Below, piece after piece: positions 212 to 46,162 of a stretch of DNA of 64,000 nt; position 1 is the stretch's first letter; each line of letters starts with the position of its first letter. The DNA comes from Ramlibacter alkalitolerans. GTDB lineage: Bacteria > Pseudomonadota > Gammaproteobacteria > Burkholderiales > Burkholderiaceae_C. The notes below the pieces were generated by a model. It was given only the letters and a program-made list of their open reading frames with translations. It was not told where the DNA came from and searched no databases. Position numbers and translations under genes: made by a program. The stretch lies in contig NZ_JAEQND010000015.1 of NCBI RefSeq assembly GCF_016722765.1, forward strand, positions 1-64,000, given 5' to 3'.

Positions 212-233
212 TAATTCACCAGTTAGTGAATTA
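212..233. promoter_or_regulatory. Operator-like inverted repeat before the catabolic operon
   Basis: TAATTCAC and GTGAATTA form a perfect 8-bp inverted repeat around the 6-base spacer CAGTTA, ending 20 bases before the ATG of the first gene. A -10-like CATAAT lies at its left edge. AT-rich dyads of this size in GC-rich DNA are usually repressor sites. The cognate regulator is not in the window, so its family is unknown. Confidence 0.6.
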
Positions 234-253
234 AAGCCCCGGAGAGTCCACCC

Positions 254-1417
254 ATGGCCACCCAACGTCTCGGAATCATCATGCACGGCGTCACCGGACG
301 CATGGGCATGAACCAGCACCTGATCCGCTCCATCGTCGCCATCCGCAACCAGGGCGGCGTCGCGCTGTCGAACGGCGACACGGTGATGCCCGACCCGATC
401 CTGATCGGCCGCAACGCCGGCAAGATCGAGGCGCTCGCGCGCTCGCAGGGCATCGCCCGCTGGGGCACGGACCTCGACGCGGCGCTGGCCGACAAGGAAG
501 ACACGGTGTTCTTCGACGCCGGCACCACCCAGATGCGCCCGCAGCTGCTGGCCAGGGCGCTGCGTGCCGGCAAGCACGTGTACTGCGAAAAGCCCATCGC
601 CACCACGCTGGGCGAGGCGGTGGAGATCGCGAAGATGGCCGAGAAGTCGGGCCTCAAGCACGGCGCCGTGCAGGACAAGCTGTTCCTGCCCGGCCTGCGC
701 AAGCTGGACATGCTGCGCCGCGCCGGCTTCTTCGGCCGCATGCTGTCGCTGCGGCTGGAGTTCGGCTACTGGGTGTTCGAGGGCGACCTGCAGCCGATCC
801 AGCGTCCGAGCTGGAACTACCGCGCCGAGGACGGCGGCGGGATGATCCTGGACATGATGTGCCACTGGCGCTACGTGCTGGACAACCTGTTCGGCCAGGT
901 GAAGTCCATCTCCTGCCTGGGCGCCACCCACATCCCCGAGCGCTGGGACGAGAACGGCACCAAGTACCAGGCCACCGCCGACGACGCCGCCTATGCCATC
1001 GCCGAACTCGTCGGCCACAACGGCGAGCCGGTGATCGCGCAGCTGAACATGTCCTGGGCCACGCGCGTGCGCCGCGACGACCTGGTGACCTTCCACGTCG
1101 ACGGCACGCACGGTTCCGCCGTCGCCGGCCTGCAGGAGTGCCGCGCCCAGAGCCGCGTGGCCACGCCGCGCCCGGTGTGGAACCCGGACGTGAAGCAGAC
1201 CATGAACTTCTTCGACCAGTGGCAGGAGATCCCCGACAGCCAGGCCTACGACAACGGCTTCAAGATCCAGTGGGAGCACTTCATCCGCCACGTCGTGGAG
1301 GACGCGCCCTACCGCTGGACGCTGCCGGAAGGCGCCAAGGGCGTGCAACTGGTAGAGGCGGCCCTGCAAAGCTGGAAGGAACGTCGCTTCGTCGATGTCC
1401 CGCCCCTGTCGATCTGA
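254..1417 (+). CDS. Gfo/Idh/MocA family NAD(P)-dependent oxidoreductase
   Basis: Predicted cytoplasmic dehydrogenase of 387 residues. The N-terminal Rossmann fold starts at residue 5 with the nucleotide-binding stretch GVTGRMG (residues 12-18). The family's EKP signature is at residues 112-114, where the lysine contacts substrate and cofactor. The remainder fits the usual alpha/beta C-terminal domain. It starts at the ATG after GGAGAG. It is the first gene of a three-gene operon with a DUF993 protein and a TIM-barrel epimerase, which suggests oxidation of a sugar, cyclitol or glycoside during catabolism. The substrate cannot be read from sequence. Confidence 0.88.
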   Translation: MATQRLGIIMHGVTGRMGMNQHLIRSIVAIRNQGGVALSNGDTVMPDPILIGRNAGKIEALARSQGIARWGTDLDAALADKEDTVFFDAGTTQMRPQLLARALRAGKHVYCEKPIATTLGEAVEIAKMAEKSGLKHGAVQDKLFLPGLRKLDMLRRAGFFGRMLSLRLEFGYWVFEGDLQPIQRPSWNYRAEDGGGMILDMMCHWRYVLDNLFGQVKSISCLGATHIPERWDENGTKYQATADDAAYAIAELVGHNGEPVIAQLNMSWATRVRRDDLVTFHVDGTHGSAVAGLQECRAQSRVATPRPVWNPDVKQTMNFFDQWQEIPDSQAYDNGFKIQWEHFIRHVVEDAPYRWTLPEGAKGVQLVEAALQSWKERRFVDVPPLSI

Positions 1418-1427
1418 GCACCGCGCC

Positions 1428-2612
1428 ATGGCCATCACCCTGAAGCTGCCCACCCGCGACGGCACCCTGGAGGACTACACCCTGAGCGGCAGCGCTCCGG
1501 TGCAGCCCGAGCGCGGCGTCAAGTTCGACCGCATCGCCTATTCCGCCGCCCACGTGGTGGCCGACCCGCTGGCGGCCGTGGATCCCTGGATCGAGTCGGC
1601 CGTCGACTGGGACGCCACCATCGCCTACCGCCAGCGCCTCTGGTCGCTGGGCCTGGGCGTGGCCGAAGCCATGGACACCGCGCAGCGCGGCATGGGCCTG
1701 GACTGGCCCACTTCCCTGGAGCTGATCCGCCGCTCGCTGGACGCAGCCCGCGACGTCCCCGGTGCGTTGGTGGCTTGCGGCTGCGGCACCGACCACCTCG
1801 CTGCCGCGGAGGCCCATTCGATCGACGACGTGATCCGCGCCTACGAGGAGCAGATGGAAGCCATCGAGAAGCTCGGTGGCCGCCTGATCGTGATGGCGAG
1901 CCGGGCCCTGGCCCGGGTGGCGACGGGCCCGGCCGACTACGAGAAGGTCTACGGGCGCATCCTGTCACAGGCGAAACAGCCGGTGATCCTGCACTGGCTG
2001 GGCGACATGTTCGATCCGGCACTCGCAGGCTACTGGGGCACGCGCAACGTCGACGAAGCGATGGACACGGCGCTGGGCATCATCCACGCCCGCGCGTCCA
2101 AGGTCGACGGGATCAAGATCTCGCTGCTGGACAAGCACAAGGAAATCGCCATGCGCCGGCGCCTGCCCGCGGGCGTGCGCATGTACACGGGCGACGACTT
2201 CAACTACGCCGAGCTGATCGCCGGCGACGGCCATGGAAGCGACCCGGTGCAGGGCCGCAGCGACGCCCTGCTCGGGATCTTCGACGCCATCGCGCCGGCG
2301 GCGAGCGCCGCCCTGGGCGAGCTCGCCGCGGGCAACGTGATGCGCTTCCACGCCATCCTGGGCCCGACGGTGCCGCTGTCGCGCCACATCTTCGCGGCGC
2401 CCACCCGCTTCTACAAGACCGGCGTGGTGTTCATGGCCTGGCTCAATGGCCACCAGTCCCACTTCACCATGGTGGGCGGCCAGCAGAGTACGCGCAGCCT
2501 GCCGCACCTGGCGGAGCTCTTCCGCCTGGCGGATGCGGCCAACCTGCTGGAGCAGCCGGAGCTGGCCAGCCGGCGCATGAGGACGATGCTGGCGCTGCAC
2601 GGGGTCGCGTGA
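1428..2612 (+). CDS. DUF993 family protein (dihydrodipicolinate synthase-like)
   Basis: Protein of 394 residues that I recognise as DUF993, a family related to class I lyase/aldolase TIM barrels of the DapA type. The chosen ATG is ten bases after the stop of the upstream dehydrogenase. An in-frame ATG at 1395 would overlap that gene and adds an unlikely leader. The terminal bases overlap the alternative GTG start of the next gene, so the three genes are probably co-translated. An aldol or retro-aldol step on the oxidised sugar is a reasonable guess from family and context. The reaction is unproven. Confidence 0.8.
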   Translation: MAITLKLPTRDGTLEDYTLSGSAPVQPERGVKFDRIAYSAAHVVADPLAAVDPWIESAVDWDATIAYRQRLWSLGLGVAEAMDTAQRGMGLDWPTSLELIRRSLDAARDVPGALVACGCGTDHLAAAEAHSIDDVIRAYEEQMEAIEKLGGRLIVMASRALARVATGPADYEKVYGRILSQAKQPVILHWLGDMFDPALAGYWGTRNVDEAMDTALGIIHARASKVDGIKISLLDKHKEIAMRRRLPAGVRMYTGDDFNYAELIAGDGHGSDPVQGRSDALLGIFDAIAPAASAALGELAAGNVMRFHAILGPTVPLSRHIFAAPTRFYKTGVVFMAWLNGHQSHFTMVGGQQSTRSLPHLAELFRLADAANLLEQPELASRRMRTMLALHGVA

Positions 2613-2614
2613 CG

Positions 2615-3493
2615 ATGCGGGATTTTTCGCAGGACCACCGCTGGCTCTCGGTCAACACGGCCACGGTGCGCAAGTCGGGCGGCGAGGACCTTCCGCTGCC
2701 GCGGATCGTCGAGGCCTGCGTGGAGCGCGGCATCCGGGCGATCTCGCCCTGGCGCGACCAGGTGCAGGCGGCCGGCATCACCAAGGTCGCGAAGCTGGTG
2801 CGGGACCACGGCCTGAAGCTTTCCGGCTACTGCCGTGGCGGCATGTTCCCGGCCACCGACGCGCAGGGCCTGAAGGCGGCTCGCGAGGACAACCGGCGCG
2901 CCGTGGATGAAGCCGCGCAGCTGGGCGCCGCCTGCCTCGTGCTGGTGGTGGGCGGCCTGCCCGGCGCCTTGCAGGGCCAGCCCGCGCACAAGGACATCGC
3001 GCTGGCGCGCAACCAGGTCCGGGACGGCATCGGCGAGCTGCTGGAATATGCCCGCACCGCCAACCTGCCGCTGGCGATCGAGCCGCTGCACCCGATGTAT
3101 GCGGCCGACCGGGCCTGCATCAACACGCTGGAGCAGGCGCTGGACGTCTGCGACGAGCTCGACCCGTATCGGTCCGGCAGCCTGGGCGTGGCCGTGGACG
3201 TGTACCACGTCTGGTGGGACCCGAAGCTGGAGCAGCAGATCCGGCGCGCGGGCCGCAGCCGCCTGCTGGCGTTCCATGTCTGCGACTGGCTCACGCCGAC
3301 GACGGACCTGCTGAACGACCGCGGCATGATGGGCGACGGCGTGATCGACATCCCGCGCATCCGCGGCTGGGTGGAGGCGCAGGGCTTCGCCGGCTTCAGC
3401 GAGGTGGAGATCTTCTCCACCGGCAACTGGTGGCAGCGGCCGCACGCGGAGGTGCTGGACACCTGCATCGCGCGGCACAGGACGGCGGTGTAG
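2615..3493 (+). CDS. Sugar phosphate isomerase/epimerase family protein (TIM barrel)
   Basis: Protein of 292 residues of the xylose-isomerase-like/AP-endonuclease-2 TIM-barrel family. These are divalent-metal enzymes that isomerise or epimerise keto sugars and inositol derivatives. Visible family features are the acidic metal-ligand strands around IEPLHPM and VAVDVYHVWWD, and a late FSEVEIFS strand. The ATG at 2615 is used. A GTG at 2609 overlapping the upstream stop is also possible. It is last in the operon with the dehydrogenase and DUF993 protein and probably acts on the same substrate. A family A repeat follows. Confidence 0.85.
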   Translation: MRDFSQDHRWLSVNTATVRKSGGEDLPLPRIVEACVERGIRAISPWRDQVQAAGITKVAKLVRDHGLKLSGYCRGGMFPATDAQGLKAAREDNRRAVDEAAQLGAACLVLVVGGLPGALQGQPAHKDIALARNQVRDGIGELLEYARTANLPLAIEPLHPMYAADRACINTLEQALDVCDELDPYRSGSLGVAVDVYHVWWDPKLEQQIRRAGRSRLLAFHVCDWLTPTTDLLNDRGMMGDGVIDIPRIRGWVEAQGFAGFSEVEIFSTGNWWQRPHAEVLDTCIARHRTAV

Positions 3494-3541
3494 GCGGCGG
3501 AAGGGGGTGACTCCCTCCGTCATCCGCGCAAAGGGATGTCT

Positions 3542-3626
3542 CGTCATCCCCGCGAAGGCGGGGATCCAGGGCTTCCTGGAGCGCGCGCAGCGCGCGTTCC
3601 GGCCCCCCACCTGCGCGGGGGTGACG
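3542..3626. repeat. Family A intergenic repeat, composite
   Basis: A left unit (GTCATCCCCGCGAAGGCGGGG) and an inverted right unit (CCCCCACCTGCGCGGGGGTGAC) flank a GC hairpin built on GCGCGCGCAGCGCGCG. It lies between the convergent epimerase and bactofilin genes. The arrangement resembles a REP/BIME-type mosaic and could act as a bidirectional transcript end, although it lacks T runs. Confidence 0.75.
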
Positions 3627-3636
3627 GCCTTACCTC

Positions 3637-4164
3637 CTACTGCACCTGCTGCAGCGGCGCCCGCACCGGTGACGCCTGTGCGCTCTTCGGGCCGATGCCG
3701 GCTTCGATCTCGCCGGAGAGCTGGCCGCCCTCCTCGATCACCACCTTGCCGTAGCGGACCTTGCCCGTGACCTTGCCGGTCGAATAGATCACCAGCTTCT
3801 GGCGCACGGTGAGGTTGCCCTCGAACAGGCCGCGGATCTCCGCCACGTCGATCTCGGCGGAACCCTTGAAGGCACCGCGTTCGGAGATCTGGATCACGCG
3901 CGAGTCCATCGTGGCTTCCACCGAGCCTTCCACCACCAGGGTGTCGCAGTCGGTGATCTCCACTCCCTTGAGCTTGATGTTCGGGCCGACGGTCAGCTTG
4001 CTTTCGCCTTCCTTCACGACCGGGGCGGAGGCGGGCTGCGCCGGGGTGGCGGGGGCAGGCTGCTGGGCGCCGGCCACGGCGGCGGCGTTGGGGTTCGCTC
4101 CGGTGCGCGGATAGGTGTCCTCGCGCTTGTTGTTGTTGTTGAAGAAGGGGGACTGCAATGCCAT
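3637..4164 (-). CDS. Bactofilin family protein (polymer-forming cytoskeletal)
   Basis: Protein of 175 residues. The central region (about 60-150) has the repetitive beta-helix pattern of bactofilins, with phrases such as VVEGSVEATMDSRVIQIS and GLFEGNLTVRQKLVIYS. It is flanked by Pro/Ala-rich tails, and the N-terminus carries an NNNNK run. Bactofilins polymerise without nucleotide and scaffold envelope or polarity functions. There is no signal peptide. The start follows the ribosome-binding-like AGAGGAACG. It is transcribed away from the preceding operon. The cellular role is not evident from its neighbours. Confidence 0.88.
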   Translation of the reverse strand: MALQSPFFNNNNKREDTYPRTGANPNAAAVAGAQQPAPATPAQPASAPVVKEGESKLTVGPNIKLKGVEITDCDTLVVEGSVEATMDSRVIQISERGAFKGSAEIDVAEIRGLFEGNLTVRQKLVIYSTGKVTGKVRYGKVVIEEGGQLSGEIEAGIGPKSAQASPVRAPLQQVQ

Positions 4165-7880: not shown

Positions 7881-9632
7881 TCAGGGTTCGGTGCGCAGGC
7901 GCGGTTCGTCGACGCCGCTGGCCCGGTTCAATTGCATGTAGGTGAGCGGACCGGGGCGGCCGTCCGGCGGCAGGCCCTGCGCGAGCTGGAACGAGCGCAC
8001 GTCGGCGGCGAGCGCGGCATCGAAGACCGCCGGGCGCGTCGGCGCCGGAGCGCCGCGGGCCAGGGCGAGCCGGCTGGCGGTCCACTCCATGGTGGGGTCG
8101 GCCTGGCCCTGGCGCAACTTCTCGCCGTAGCCGGGAGGAACGCGCCACAGCGTGCCGAACTCGCCGTGCCAGCGCTGCGCCAGCGCCGCCAGCGTGACCG
8201 TCTGCTCGGTGCCGGCGGCGCGCAAGGTGGCGGTGCGGTCCGTGAGTCCGGCGAGGATCGCATAGGAGGGCTGGCCGGTGTCGCGGTCCAGGGTGACGAT
8301 GCCCGGCCGACCGAGCTGGCGGATCATCGCCAGGCTCATGGTGCGGTTGAAGCACTGCACCTGGCGGCGCGCCAGTGCCGTGCAGGCGTCGCCCTCCTCC
8401 ACCGGGATCTGCCAGCCCTGCGCCAGCTCGCGCCAGGCCTGCTGCTCGTCGCGCAGCAGCGTCGGCGGCACAGGCGCGGCGGCGGTGACTGGCGCGGAGG
8501 GCGTGGCGACTGCGGCGACCGCGACGGATGCGGCCGATGCGGCCGCTGCGGGCGGCGTGACCGGTGCGGCCGACGCCGACTCGGTGGCTGCCGGCCCGGT
8601 GGCGGCGACCCACACGGGCTCTGGCGGCGCACTCCGCACCGCCAGCGCCGCCGGCCCGCTCGCCTTGGGCGCCAGCGTGAACGTCCCGGGCAGCATCGGC
8701 ATCGACACCTCGTCGGCGACCCGCGTGGCGGCGGCGAGCAGGCCGGCGCCCGCCACCAGCCCCAGCACGCCGGCCAGCGCGGCCCGCGGCCACGGACGCA
8801 GCGGCCCGCCGGCGCGCGGGAAGACTTCCTCCGCCGCCTCGGCCACCACCCGCCGCGTGACCTGGCCCTGCCCGTTGGCATAGGCGCCCAGGAGCGCGCG
8901 GTCGCACAGCAGGTTGATGCGGCGCGGCACGCCCCCGGTGGCGCGATGGATGCTGCGCAGCGCCGCGCGGTCGAAGGGCAGCGGCCGCTGCAGGCCGCAC
9001 ATCTCGAGCCGGTGGCGCACGTACTGCGCGCTTTCCGCCTCGCCCAGCGCGCGCAGGTGGTAGCGCGCGATCACGCGCTGCGCGAGCTGTTCGAGCTCCG
9101 GCCGGGCCAGCATGTCGCGCAGCTCGGGCTGGCCGATCAGGATGATCTGCAGCAGCTTGCGCTCGCTGGTCTCCAGATTGGTCAGCAGCCGCAGCTGCTC
9201 CAGCACCTCGGGCGCCAGGTTCTGCGCCTCGTCGATCACGAGCACGTTGTTGCGGCCGGCGGCATGCGAGTGCAGCAGGAAGGCATTGAGGGGATCGAGG
9301 TAGTCCTTGACGGTCGCGGCGCGCTGCGGCGGCGGCGTCACCGCGACGCCGAACTCGTGGCAGACCGTCTCGAGCAGCTCGATCACGGTCAGCTTGGGAT
9401 TGAAGATGTAGGCGAGGTTGACGTGCGGCGGCACCTGCTCGAGGAAGGAGCGGCACACCGTGGTCTTGCCGGTGCCGATCTCGCCGGTGAGCAGCACGAA
9501 GCCGCCGCCGCCCTGGACGCCATACAGCAGGTGCGCGAGGGCTTCCCGGTGCTGTTCGCTCATGAACAGCAGGCGCGGATCCGGCGCGATGGAGAACGGC
9601 TCCTGCTTCAGCCCGAAATACGCGGCGTACAT
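7881..9632 (-). CDS. gspA: ExeA/GspA-type AAA+ ATPase with peptidoglycan-binding domain
   Basis: Protein of 583 residues. The start MYAAYFGLKQEPFSIAPDP is the classical ExeA opening, which rules out the longer in-frame extension. The AAA+ domain occupies about residues 1-270, with Walker A GEIGTGKT and Walker B VLVIDEAQN. A transmembrane segment near 285-305 is followed by a Pro/Ala linker, a peptidase-like middle region and a C-terminal peptidoglycan-binding domain (YMQLNRASG). It works with GspB to let the secretin cross the cell wall. This pair is isolated here. Confidence 0.9.
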   Translation of the reverse strand: MYAAYFGLKQEPFSIAPDPRLLFMSEQHREALAHLLYGVQGGGGFVLLTGEIGTGKTTVCRSFLEQVPPHVNLAYIFNPKLTVIELLETVCHEFGVAVTPPPQRAATVKDYLDPLNAFLLHSHAAGRNNVLVIDEAQNLAPEVLEQLRLLTNLETSERKLLQIILIGQPELRDMLARPELEQLAQRVIARYHLRALGEAESAQYVRHRLEMCGLQRPLPFDRAALRSIHRATGGVPRRINLLCDRALLGAYANGQGQVTRRVVAEAAEEVFPRAGGPLRPWPRAALAGVLGLVAGAGLLAAATRVADEVSMPMLPGTFTLAPKASGPAALAVRSAPPEPVWVAATGPAATESASAAPVTPPAAAASAASVAVAAVATPSAPVTAAAPVPPTLLRDEQQAWRELAQGWQIPVEEGDACTALARRQVQCFNRTMSLAMIRQLGRPGIVTLDRDTGQPSYAILAGLTDRTATLRAAGTEQTVTLAALAQRWHGEFGTLWRVPPGYGEKLRQGQADPTMEWTASRLALARGAPAPTRPAVFDAALAADVRSFQLAQGLPPDGRPGPLTYMQLNRASGVDEPRLRTEP

Positions 9633-9799
9633 GCGCCTAGGATAACTCGGCCATGTAACAGTGTCGTGGGGGGCAACCCCCGCCGACTGACGTGCGTCAG
9701 GCGAAGGCGAGGCGCTGCGGCGAACGCCAGCGGCGCCATGCGCGTGGCCGGCTGCAAGGCCGCAGCCCGCCACCGGACACAGGCTCTACACTTCGCGCC

Positions 9800-10297
9800 G
9801 TGGCCACCATCCGAAGCGCCGGCTTGCTGATGTTCCGACGCCGTGCCGGCGCGGTGGAGGTCCTGCTCGCCCATCCCGGCGGGCCGTTCTGGGTCCGCCG
9901 GGACATCGCCTCCTGGACCCTGCCCAAGGGCGAGATCGGCCTCGACGAGGATCCGCTCGCCGCCGCCCAGCGCGAGTTCCGGGAGGAAACCGGCTTCGAG
10001 AGCACCCCGCCCTTCCTGCCCCTGGGTGAACTGCGGCAGAAGAGCGGCAAGCGCATCACCGCGTGGGCGTTCGAAGGCGATGCCGATCCGTCGCTGCTCG
10101 TGAGCAACCTGTTCGAGATGGAGTGGCCGCCGCGCTCGGGCCGCATGCAGGCCTTCCCCGAGATCGACCGCGTGCGCTGGTTCGCGCCCGGGGAGGCGCG
10201 GCAGAAGCTCATCGCCGGGCAGGCCCCTTTCGTCGATGCGCTCCTGCAGACGCTGGGCGCTCAACCCACCGGCGCGCTGCCCGCCACGCCGGCCTGA
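9800..10297 (+). CDS. Nudix hydrolase
   Basis: Protein of 165 residues if begun at the GTG at 9800. An ATG ten codons later is the alternative. The Nudix box is complete (G-x5-E-x7-REFREETGF), so Mg2+-dependent hydrolysis of a nucleoside diphosphate linked to X is expected. The PKGEIG context and the WFAPGEARQKL ending resemble small diadenosine-polyphosphate or RNA-pyrophosphatase-like Nudix enzymes, but I cannot assign a substrate. It is convergent with the S9 peptidase, ending six bases from it. Confidence 0.88.
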   Translation: MATIRSAGLLMFRRRAGAVEVLLAHPGGPFWVRRDIASWTLPKGEIGLDEDPLAAAQREFREETGFESTPPFLPLGELRQKSGKRITAWAFEGDADPSLLVSNLFEMEWPPRSGRMQAFPEIDRVRWFAPGEARQKLIAGQAPFVDALLQTLGAQPTGALPATPA

Positions 10298-44107: not shown

Positions 44108-46162
44108 CTAGGAGATTCCCTTAGGCGGGCCCGCGCTGGGCGTGAGGAGGCTCAGGAGCCAGGTGACGCCGAAACCCACCGGCACGCCGAACACGCCGGC
44201 CGAGAGCGGCTGGATGCCGAACCACAGGTCCTGCCCCGCGACCAGGCCCAGCGCCGCGCGCACGTTGCTCGCATTGATGCTCATGTAATACAGCGTGACG
44301 CCGAGGCCGGCGAGCATGCCGCACACCGCGCCGACGCGATTGGTGCCGCGCCACAGGATGCCCAGCACCATCGCCGGCACGAACGCGGCCGCCGCAAGCG
44401 AGAAGGACGCCGACACCAGCAGCAGGATCTCGGCGGGCTTGGCCGTCGCCACCACCGCGGCGACGAGCGCGACCCCCATCAGCGCGAACTTGGAGAGGAT
44501 CACGCGCTGTTCGGCCGGCAGGTCGGGCCGCACGTCGTGGCAGAAGATGTCGCGCACGAGCGCGTTGCTGATCGTCAGCAGCAGGCCGTCGGCGGTGGAC
44601 AGCGCCGCGGCCAGCCCGCCGGCGGCCACCAGCCCGGAGATCACGTACGGCAGGCCGCCGAGTTCCGGCGTCGCCAGCATGATGATGTCGGCGCCCAGGC
44701 GGATCTCGCCCCACTGCAGGATGCGGTCGCCGTTCACGTCGGCGACGGCGACGAGCGTGGGATCGACCCGCGCCCACTGCGCGATCCACGCCGGCAGGCT
44801 GTCGAAGCTGCTGCCCACCAGGTTGTTCATCACCTCGAACTTCACCAGCGCCGCGAGCGCCGGCGCGCTGATGTAGACCAGGGCGATGAAGAACAGCGAC
44901 CACGCCACCGAGGAGCGCGTGGCCGACACGCTGGGCGTCGTGTAGTAGCGCGTGAGCAGGTGCGGCAGTCCGGCCGTGCCCAGCATCAGGCAGAACATCA
45001 GCGCCAGGAAGTTGCGCCGCGACAGGTCGAAGGTTTCGCGCTCCTGCGGCGAGCCCTTGGGATCGCCGGCGAAGGGCTGGCTGTGGCGCGGGATGCCGCC
45101 CAGCGGCCGCGCCCGCTCGTAGCTCTCGGCCATCGCGCGGCTCCACTGCTCGCGGGCGCCGGCGGCGTCGCGCGGCAGCGCGGTGAGCGCGCGCGAGGCC
45201 TGCTGGATCTCCGCCGCGTCCGCGTTCTGCTGCTTCAACTGGCGCACCCTCGCCTGCGCCTCCGAGCGCACGCGCGACAAGGACCCGGGCAGGTCGTGCA
45301 GCAGGGCCTCGTACTCGCGCCCGCGGGCCAGGAAGATCGCGCCGACCTGGCGTTCGGCCGGGTCGCGCGCGATGCGGTCTTCCAGCGCGCGGATCTTCTG
45401 CAGTTGCTTGCCGTAGACGAAGGGCGCGGCCGGTTCGCCGAGCTGCTTGTACGCCAGCCAGGAAACCGGGATCAGGAACGCCAGCAGCATCACGACGTAC
45501 TGCGCCACCTGCGTCCACGTGATGGCCTTCATGCCGCCGAGGAAGGAGCAGAGCAGGACACCGCCGATCCCGAGCAGGATGCCGATCTCGAACTGCACGC
45601 CCGTGAGGCGCGAGGCGATCAGGCCGACGCCGTAGATCTGGGCCACCACGTACAGGAAGGAGCACAGCACCGCGGCCAGCGCCGCGATGATGCGCGGCCC
45701 GCGCCCGCCGAAGCGCACGTCGAAGTACTCCGGCACCGTGTAGAGGTTCAGCCGCCGCAGGTGCGGCGCGATCAGCAGCGCCAGCAGGCAGAAGCCGCCC
45801 GTCCATCCCAGCACGTAGGCCAGGCCGCCCGCCTGCTGGTCGTTGCCGCCATAGCCTTGCAGGTACAGCCCCCCCGCCAGGCTGATGAAGGAGGCCGCGC
45901 TCATCCAGTCGGCGGCGGCCGCCATGCCGTTGTACATCGGCGGAATGCGCCGGCCCGCGACGTAGTACTCCTCGGGGTCGGTGGTGCGGCTGCGGATGCC
46001 GATCACCGCGTACATCATCACCGTGGAGAAGATGAAGATCGGGCCGAGCCAGAAGCGCGAGAGCCCCCGCTGCTCCGCGAACGTGAGCAGCAGCAGGAAC
46101 AGGATGAAGCCGACGGTGAAGGACAGCAGGACCCGGCGGATGCGGCGCTCGTAGCGCGTCAC
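44108..46162 (-). CDS. Sodium:solute symporter, VC_2705 (ActP-like) subfamily
   Basis: SSS-family protein of 684 residues with about 13 membrane segments. AGRRIPPMYNGMAAAADWMSAASFIS and YTVPEYFDVRFGGRGPRI are typical of the acetate-permease-like branch. A large charged loop (about 255-370, with helical RVRSEAQARVRQLKQQ) is the hallmark of the VC_2705 subfamily. It probably imports acetate or another short carboxylate with Na+. It is four bases after the DUF4212 partner, with which it must work. Confidence 0.9.
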   Translation of the reverse strand: MTRYERRIRRVLLSFTVGFILFLLLLTFAEQRGLSRFWLGPIFIFSTVMMYAVIGIRSRTTDPEEYYVAGRRIPPMYNGMAAAADWMSAASFISLAGGLYLQGYGGNDQQAGGLAYVLGWTGGFCLLALLIAPHLRRLNLYTVPEYFDVRFGGRGPRIIAALAAVLCSFLYVVAQIYGVGLIASRLTGVQFEIGILLGIGGVLLCSFLGGMKAITWTQVAQYVVMLLAFLIPVSWLAYKQLGEPAAPFVYGKQLQKIRALEDRIARDPAERQVGAIFLARGREYEALLHDLPGSLSRVRSEAQARVRQLKQQNADAAEIQQASRALTALPRDAAGAREQWSRAMAESYERARPLGGIPRHSQPFAGDPKGSPQERETFDLSRRNFLALMFCLMLGTAGLPHLLTRYYTTPSVSATRSSVAWSLFFIALVYISAPALAALVKFEVMNNLVGSSFDSLPAWIAQWARVDPTLVAVADVNGDRILQWGEIRLGADIIMLATPELGGLPYVISGLVAAGGLAAALSTADGLLLTISNALVRDIFCHDVRPDLPAEQRVILSKFALMGVALVAAVVATAKPAEILLLVSASFSLAAAAFVPAMVLGILWRGTNRVGAVCGMLAGLGVTLYYMSINASNVRAALGLVAGQDLWFGIQPLSAGVFGVPVGFGVTWLLSLLTPSAGPPKGIS

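Follow-up and report, generated by a model that had tools for sequence, protein, structure and literature searches.

What does DUF993, a protein family with no assigned reaction, do in Ramlibacter alkalitolerans, and do the enzymes encoded beside it form a pathway with it? The question is raised by three adjacent genes in a 64,000-nucleotide stretch (assembly GCF_016722765.1, contig NZ_JAEQND010000015.1, forward strand, positions 1 to 64,000), called the window here. All three lie on the plus strand and encode a Gfo/Idh/MocA-family NAD(P)-dependent dehydrogenase (254–1417, 387 amino acids; PF22725, PF01408, and PF02894 above cut-off); the DUF993 protein (1428–2612, 394 amino acids), a divergent member of the dihydrodipicolinate synthase (DHDPS)/N-acetylneuraminate lyase superfamily and predicted Schiff-base aldolase or lyase with Lys230; and a xylose isomerase-like TIM-barrel protein (2615–3493, 292 amino acids; PF01261 AP_endonuc_2, 129 bits, likewise above cut-off), a predicted metal-dependent sugar isomerase or epimerase called the isomerase below. 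The DUF993 protein matches PF06187 over model positions 1–382 of 382 (629.9 bits against a gathering score of 24, E 1.9e-189). Gaps of only 10 bp (dehydrogenase/DUF993) and 2 bp (DUF993/isomerase) separate the genes, and a perfect 22-bp inverted repeat, a probable TetR operator assigned to no strand (212–233; core TTCAC-N6-GTGAA at 215–230), lies 20 bp before the first start codon. A preliminary description had proposed a single operon of these three enzyme classes under a single operator, and the open reading frames, Pfam matches, and inverted repeat bear it out. The grouping of dehydrogenase, DUF993, and isomerase is real and confirmed, and the system is larger than first seen. Our favored reading, to which we give an even chance, is that the trio forms one arm of an inducible catabolic regulon under TetR control, the substrate of which would be a polyhydroxylated anion, most probably a sugar acid.

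Conservation of the trio was followed in two samples. The gene-neighborhood comparison that the preliminary description called for covered the 80 loci with the closest DUF993 relatives in named genomes, a sample biased by that choice; the dehydrogenase gene lies within 300 bp of DUF993 on the same strand in 71 loci, the isomerase gene in 67, and both in 63. The remaining loci include some short contigs, and in six the isomerase gene is 2.6–4.7 kb away. Among 398 genomes sampled across the phylum, DUF993 is found in 36, the dehydrogenase in 19, and the isomerase in 20 (orthologs were accepted at thresholds of our own choosing, E up to 1e-60 and up to 1e-25, respectively). Every dehydrogenase genome (19/19) and every isomerase genome (20/20) also contains DUF993, and by the listed coordinates each of these orthologs adjoins it, in one genome across two contigs. 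Hypergeometric probabilities for this co-occurrence are about 6e-23 for the dehydrogenase and 3e-24 for the isomerase, values that ignore kinship. The pathway idea had been expected to weaken if DUF993 occurred mainly without such partners; by a narrow margin DUF993 genomes of this sample do carry them, 19 and 20 of the 36. This dehydrogenase is absent from the other 17, and the 13 of those regions that were inspected place DUF993 in other contexts, several of them catabolic. Within the genus, one search located DUF993 in 28 of 37 genomes, including that of the window.

The DUF993 protein is a relative of 4dnh (SMc04132 of Sinorhizobium meliloti), a structure released in 2012 with no function in its title. 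Its AlphaFold2 model (pLDDT 88.1, pTM 0.89) has the TIM-barrel fold of the DHDPS/N-acetylneuraminate lyase superfamily, the class I aldolases; Foldseek retrieves 4dnh first and then entries of that superfamily (E 4e-11), and VIA gives Z scores of 28.7–30.1 and an rmsd of 2.2–2.5 over about 285 residues against the DHDPS-family rows listed, with 10–18% identity in the listed structural alignments. Single hhalign comparisons with a DHDPS-family profile (nine rows, two genes appearing twice) gave a local E of 3.3e-9 at probability 96 and a global value of 4e-11. Both modes place K230 on the Schiff-base lysine (GIKE), H189 on the tyrosine, D83-T84-A85-Q86-R87 (DTAQR) on GTTGE, and D256/D257 on GDD; H189 was not placed on the tyrosine in an earlier global alignment with fewer sequences. 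All 135 sequences compared, drawn from loci with differing neighbors, have K230, D83, T84, R87, and H189.

DUF993 thus shares with the superfamily its fold, the GDD region, and, at the alignment level, the lysine of the GIK motif, whereas the pyruvate-type GTTGE motif and the catalytic tyrosine are absent from it, DTAQR and His189 standing in their places, and about 100 residues are extra. With DTAQR in place of GTTGE, plain pyruvate is an unlikely carbonyl half. Model fold and conserved lysine together support the earlier suggestion that DUF993 is aldolase-like, and the protein would be a class I lyase for a carbonyl substrate other than plain pyruvate, with a reaction common to the clades. 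The link to the superfamily is not new, because NCBI already labels many DUF993 proteins as dihydrodipicolinate synthase family.

The inverted repeat before the operon reads TAATTCAC-CAGTTA-GTGAATTA. Of the 78 relative loci at least 5 kb long (the other two of the 80 were shorter and dropped), 22 contain its core, with 22 sites in all, and the six-base spacer is specific, other spacers and scrambled arms each yielding 0–3 sites. The label directly upstream of the core is TetR in 14 of the 22 loci. In 12 of 14 loci tested, the TetR gene and a divergent gene for a thiamine-diphosphate enzyme have between them a one-mismatch form, TTAAC-N6-GTGAA or its complement, the exceptions differing at two positions (L032) or four (L140); the enzyme, in the L005 copy, matches the NCBIfam model PRK08199 (783.9 bits against 539). 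Among the loci scanned for the operator, the core was not found in Alphaproteobacteria. Seven Bradyrhizobium loci (L044, L052, L053, L054, L057, L059, and L066) have TTATCCAACGGGTTAA in common after the TetR gene, possibly a lineage variant of the operator.

Where is the regulator in the genome of the window? Base 1 of the window is base 1 of contig C7, so that the sequence 5′ of the operon is cut off at a contig end and the system is seen in part. A TetR ortholog (87% identity) and the thiamine-diphosphate gene occur at the end of another contig, C16 (the match ends at 44356 of 44569, and the TetR ortholog 213 bp from the contig end), again with the one-mismatch operator between them. Because the ortholog sits at this end and precedes the operon in relatives, the operon is probably split only by the assembly; the TetR gene would then adjoin the trio, and its product would bind at 212–233 and at the sister sites. 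On the 3′ side the operon ends with the isomerase, because the next gene, encoding a bactofilin (3637–4164), is on the minus strand.

The operator also reveals a second locus. In the 5.71-Mb assembly the core occurs at two places, window 215–230 and C30:15193–15208, and the reversed-pattern control at none. The C30 site lies about 210 bp before a cluster encoding the tripartite tricarboxylate transporter proteins TctC, TctB, and TctA, a TIM-barrel protein, and an enolase-superfamily protein; L018 is one of the relatives in which the genes of this cluster and the trio make up a single operon. Fourteen regions were fetched around chosen sites, from those listed in the genus, that fit TTCACYN4RGTGAA. 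Seven are separate TctCBA–TIM barrel loci, four of which include the enolase gene within the sequence fetched, and three are TetR–DUF993 loci (L211, L213, and L217; L213 is probably from the same genome as L003), with the dehydrogenase listed in two. The genome as a whole shows a very large expansion of TctC-type (Bug) substrate-binding proteins, with 96 matches.

In six of the seven TctCBA loci the operator is 2.2–2.4 kb from TctC, and homologous DHDPS-type genes fill part of the gap in all six. In the two tested (L210 and L214), the gap genes encode an extended short-chain dehydrogenase/reductase (SDR; PF01370) and a DHDPS-family protein (PF00701, 26 bits). The operator precedes this second, divergent DHDPS-family gene ahead of TctCBA in L206, L208, L210, L214, L216, and L218; a second dehydrogenase-lyase pair possibly belongs to the same regulon in these six relatives from the genus. 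An extended SDR gene and a second DHDPS-type gene were considered as part of the C30 operator locus as well and dropped; this pair is about 50 kb away (approximately C30 69.6–72.6 kb), and neither the operator core nor its one-mismatch form occurs in the 18 kb fetched around it.

The regulon partners recur in relatives, as annotated with a labelled library that still drops some genes. In many Burkholderiales a TetR gene (TetR_C_29) is followed by transporter genes and then by dehydrogenase, DUF993, and isomerase; the transporter is of the tripartite tricarboxylate type (TctC, TctB, and TctA, or TctC alone) or an NMT1-type ABC system. These operons often also encode a second TIM-barrel protein together with one of the enolase superfamily, and some an SDR, a HIBADH-like dehydrogenase, or an amidohydrolase. 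In L139 and L141 the immediate neighbors of the trio include sugar-type (CUT1-like) carriers. Paracoccus yeei has genes annotated as glycerate kinase and aldehyde dehydrogenase close to its trio, an aldehyde dehydrogenase gene stands beside dehydrogenase and DUF993 on an Arthrobacter plasmid, and a dehydrogenase gene in the operons of some relatives has tartronate semialdehyde reductase as its best model (156 of 340.75 bits, below cut-off). Such neighbors suggest three-carbon products.

Other DUF993 loci carry varying sets of CoA-transferase, acyl-CoA dehydrogenase, SDR, enoyl-CoA hydratase, GMC oxidoreductase, aldehyde dehydrogenase, and glycerate kinase genes, on plasmids of Sinorhizobium, Rhizobium, Paracoccus, Janthinobacterium, Rhodococcus, and marine Roseobacteraceae. 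Genomes of family f51 combine DUF993 with CoA-transferase, LacI, and a sugar-type ABC transporter, and others combine it with GMC enzymes and glycerate kinase. Context follows clade in the DUF993 tree in outline only (a quick tree of 115 rows with 38 open forks). None of the 54 sequences with dehydrogenase, isomerase, and enolase matches has a CoA-transferase or acyl-CoA dehydrogenase match within 9 kb; an acyl-CoA dehydrogenase match is present in three loci having dehydrogenase and isomerase. On a plasmid of Streptomyces sp. NBC_00557 (L086), a divergent DUF993 gene (9001–10188) is directly followed by a gene for a type I polyketide synthase, and genes for acyltransferase, AMP-binding, and mycofactocin-coupled SDR proteins are close by; the family may have a biosynthetic use there. 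A gene for a beta-keto acid cleavage enzyme (PF05853; 6866–7828) is located just upstream of DUF993 in L130, near aminotransferase and TetR-like genes. The binding proteins of L085, L128, and L135 have solved proteins, sugar-binding ones included, as their best matches; these loci lack this dehydrogenase, and no conclusion is drawn from them for the window.

Relatives of all three trio proteins have solved structures with generic names or no functional names. The dehydrogenase is close only to 3oqb, named merely an oxidoreductase (E 1.4e-189). The lysine of its EKP motif (K113) and D200/H204 (D-x3-H) are present in 100 of 100 sequences, and we take these three residues to be catalytic. The isomerase has as solved relatives 3ju2 (uncharacterized protein SMc04130), 3qc0 (a sugar isomerase), and 7vpf (a xylose isomerase); its E156 and D195 are conserved in 106 of 106 sequences, H221 in 104, and E263 in 105, presumably the metal-ligand pattern of the family. 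Assignments to inositol 2-dehydrogenase IolG (TIGR04380, 57.9 of 355 bits) and levoglucosan dehydrogenase (NF052479, 44.4 of 650 bits) were rejected for the dehydrogenase, as was 5-keto-L-gluconate epimerase IolO (NF041099, 26.4 of 300 bits) for the isomerase, all three scores being below the equivalog cut-offs. In the enolase-superfamily protein the KxK motif, the acidic residues, and the later lysine are invariant in nine of nine sequences. A model of the L041 copy (pLDDT 88.9) matches enolase-superfamily entries (E 2e-16); for the copy in the genome of the window, no PDB sequence matched at E 0.001.

How might these parts work together? In the regulon that we favor, TetR would repress at the operator before the trio and at that before the TctCBA operon, until the substrate, an intermediate, or a CoA ester of either relieved repression. 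The substrate would enter via the tripartite tricarboxylate transporter, the enolase-superfamily enzyme would epimerize or dehydrate it at the carbon next to the carboxylate, and the Gfo/Idh/MocA enzyme would oxidize a hydroxyl to a ketone. One or both TIM-barrel enzymes would then move or epimerize the keto group, and DUF993 would form a Schiff base to the ketone through Lys230 and cleave a C–C bond by a retro-aldol reaction, probably to C3 fragments. The order of steps, the substrate class, and the products are what we infer. Enzymes of the enolase superfamily depend on a carboxylate adjacent to the carbon that reacts, and with a tricarboxylate-type carrier and such an enzyme as regulon partners, a carboxylate substrate is therefore favored. 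The pathway interpretation of the preliminary description was right in kind, and its sequence of oxidation, isomerization, and cleavage is plausible; its choice of a cyclitol, anhydrosugar, or glycoside as substrate finds no support, since the dehydrogenase scores far under the inositol and levoglucosan dehydrogenase cut-offs and the regulon partners point to a carboxylate, though the carriers in L139 and L141 leave room for a neutral sugar.

Several observations weigh against this reading. The pattern has 123 forward sites in 59 genus genomes and 73 in the reversed control (summed from the table), so chance sites exist at about one core per genome; four of the 14 fetched regions match neither locus type. 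Eight of the 22 core sites have a label other than TetR directly upstream: two lie before a TetR gene (L028 and L030) and four have other neighbors (L024, L032, L033, and L035), and in L012 and L020 the core site follows a thiamine-diphosphate gene and precedes transporter genes. TctC-type genes are very numerous in the genome (the 96 matches above), and relatives replace the transporter with NMT1-type, sugar-type (L139 and L141), or MFS carriers; for both reasons the carrier is a weak guide to substrate. The glycerate kinase cases seen lie outside the genus Ramlibacter. A simple sugar-acid retro-aldol fails to explain DUF993 with CoA-transferase and/or acyl-CoA dehydrogenase genes, or beside a polyketide synthase, and cleavage by DUF993 is unproven because its DHDPS relatives also catalyze dehydration or decarboxylation. 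The substrate, inducer, and reaction proposed are predictions. A more specific proposal, advanced tentatively and at somewhat less than even odds, is that DUF993 represents a new type of class I lyase acting on a ketone other than pyruvate (e.g., retro-aldol cleavage of a keto-aldonate to two C3 units). This reaction would be the step that several unrecognized catabolic routes of proteobacteria and actinobacteria have in common, and here one TetR operator would couple it to a tripartite tricarboxylate carrier, an enzyme of the enolase superfamily, and two TIM-barrel isomerases.

The substrate could instead be a cyclitol, anhydrosugar, glycoside, or other neutral sugar, which the dehydrogenase would convert to a 3-keto sugar or inosose for elimination or isomerization by the TIM barrel and cleavage by DUF993. 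Pairs of a Gfo/Idh/MocA dehydrogenase and an AP_endonuc_2 TIM-barrel protein are known in the inositol (IolG) and levoglucosan (LgdA) pathways, a likeness echoed in the weak matches to the IolG, levoglucosan dehydrogenase, and IolO models; those scores, however, are far under the equivalog cut-offs, and to our knowledge neither pathway contains DUF993. The CUT1-like carriers beside the trio in L139 and L141 also fit such a route, as do binding proteins in two other DUF993 contexts that are near 4r2b (E 3.5e-165 and 1.3e-163) and the ABC sugar transporter binding protein 5dvf (about 1e-108), but the latter come from loci without this dehydrogenase and isomerase, and in the genome of the window the regulon pairs a tricarboxylate-type carrier with an enzyme whose chemistry requires a carboxylate. 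We consider a neutral substrate unlikely.

We hold it to be just as improbable that DUF993, rather than being an aldolase, acts on a 3-keto acid or its CoA ester as a dehydratase, decarboxylase, or retro-Claisen type lyase. The superfamily does include dehydratases and decarboxylases, the GTTGE motif is altered, other DUF993 loci have CoA-transferase, enoyl-CoA hydratase, and SDR genes, and one locus with CoA-transferase (L082) falls near the clade of the window; the glycerate kinase or aldehyde dehydrogenase partners nevertheless suggest an aldehyde product, and none of the 54 sequences with dehydrogenase, isomerase, and enolase matches has the CoA-linked matches sought within 9 kb. Far less probable is a pathway that degrades a hydroxylated imino acid or another hydroxyproline-like heterocyclic acid. 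Precedent for that logic comes from hydroxyproline and betaine routes, in which epimerases of the enolase superfamily and deaminases of the DHDPS family take part, and an Oxidored_FMN protein adjoins DUF993 in L036, L037, and L039, but the regulon genes identified include no amino-acid oxidase or transaminase, and the dehydrogenase and both TIM barrels belong to sugar-enzyme families.

Comparison with known systems places the favored sugar-acid regulon among catabolic systems of a known kind; it has a divergent class I lyase whose reaction is unassigned. The second TIM barrel and the HIBADH-like dehydrogenase of L018 match models from acid-sugar pathways (5-keto-L-gluconate epimerase, 2-oxo-tetronate isomerase, tartronate semialdehyde reductase, and L-threonate dehydrogenase), although all of these matches are below the equivalog cut-offs; no search aimed at sugar-acid kinases was made. 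The SMc04130–SMc04139 region of S. meliloti encodes close sequence relatives of the isomerase (SMc04130, 3ju2) and of DUF993 (SMc04132, 4dnh), and differs in having a putative amino acid or peptide ABC carrier annotated there. One published report lists SMc04132, SMc04133, SMc04135, SMc04138, and SMc04139 as lowered in a phbC phaR strain relative to phbC in TY medium (PMC12542648); the joint lowering of the SMc04132, SMc04133, and SMc04135 proteins agrees with joint control and is silent on function. No paper on DUF993 (PF06187, IPR009334) was found in the literature searched, and a wider search, in the extracts it returned, yielded none recognizably on this system. DUF993 is nevertheless present in about one in eleven genomes of the phylum sample (36/398). 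A regulon defined by its specific operator, with a probable catalytic lysine and partner enzymes that can be named, makes this orphan family a pathway open to direct testing, and it hints at a widely used carbon source that the label "dihydrodipicolinate synthase family protein" has concealed.

GC-rich REP-like repeats of the gtcattcccgcgaaggcggg type flank the operon in the window, at 120–180 (the start of C7) and 3540–3620 (after the operon), and recur in L159 at 2155–2240 (the end of C16). A repeat of this type may have caused the assembly break between the TetR gene and the operon.

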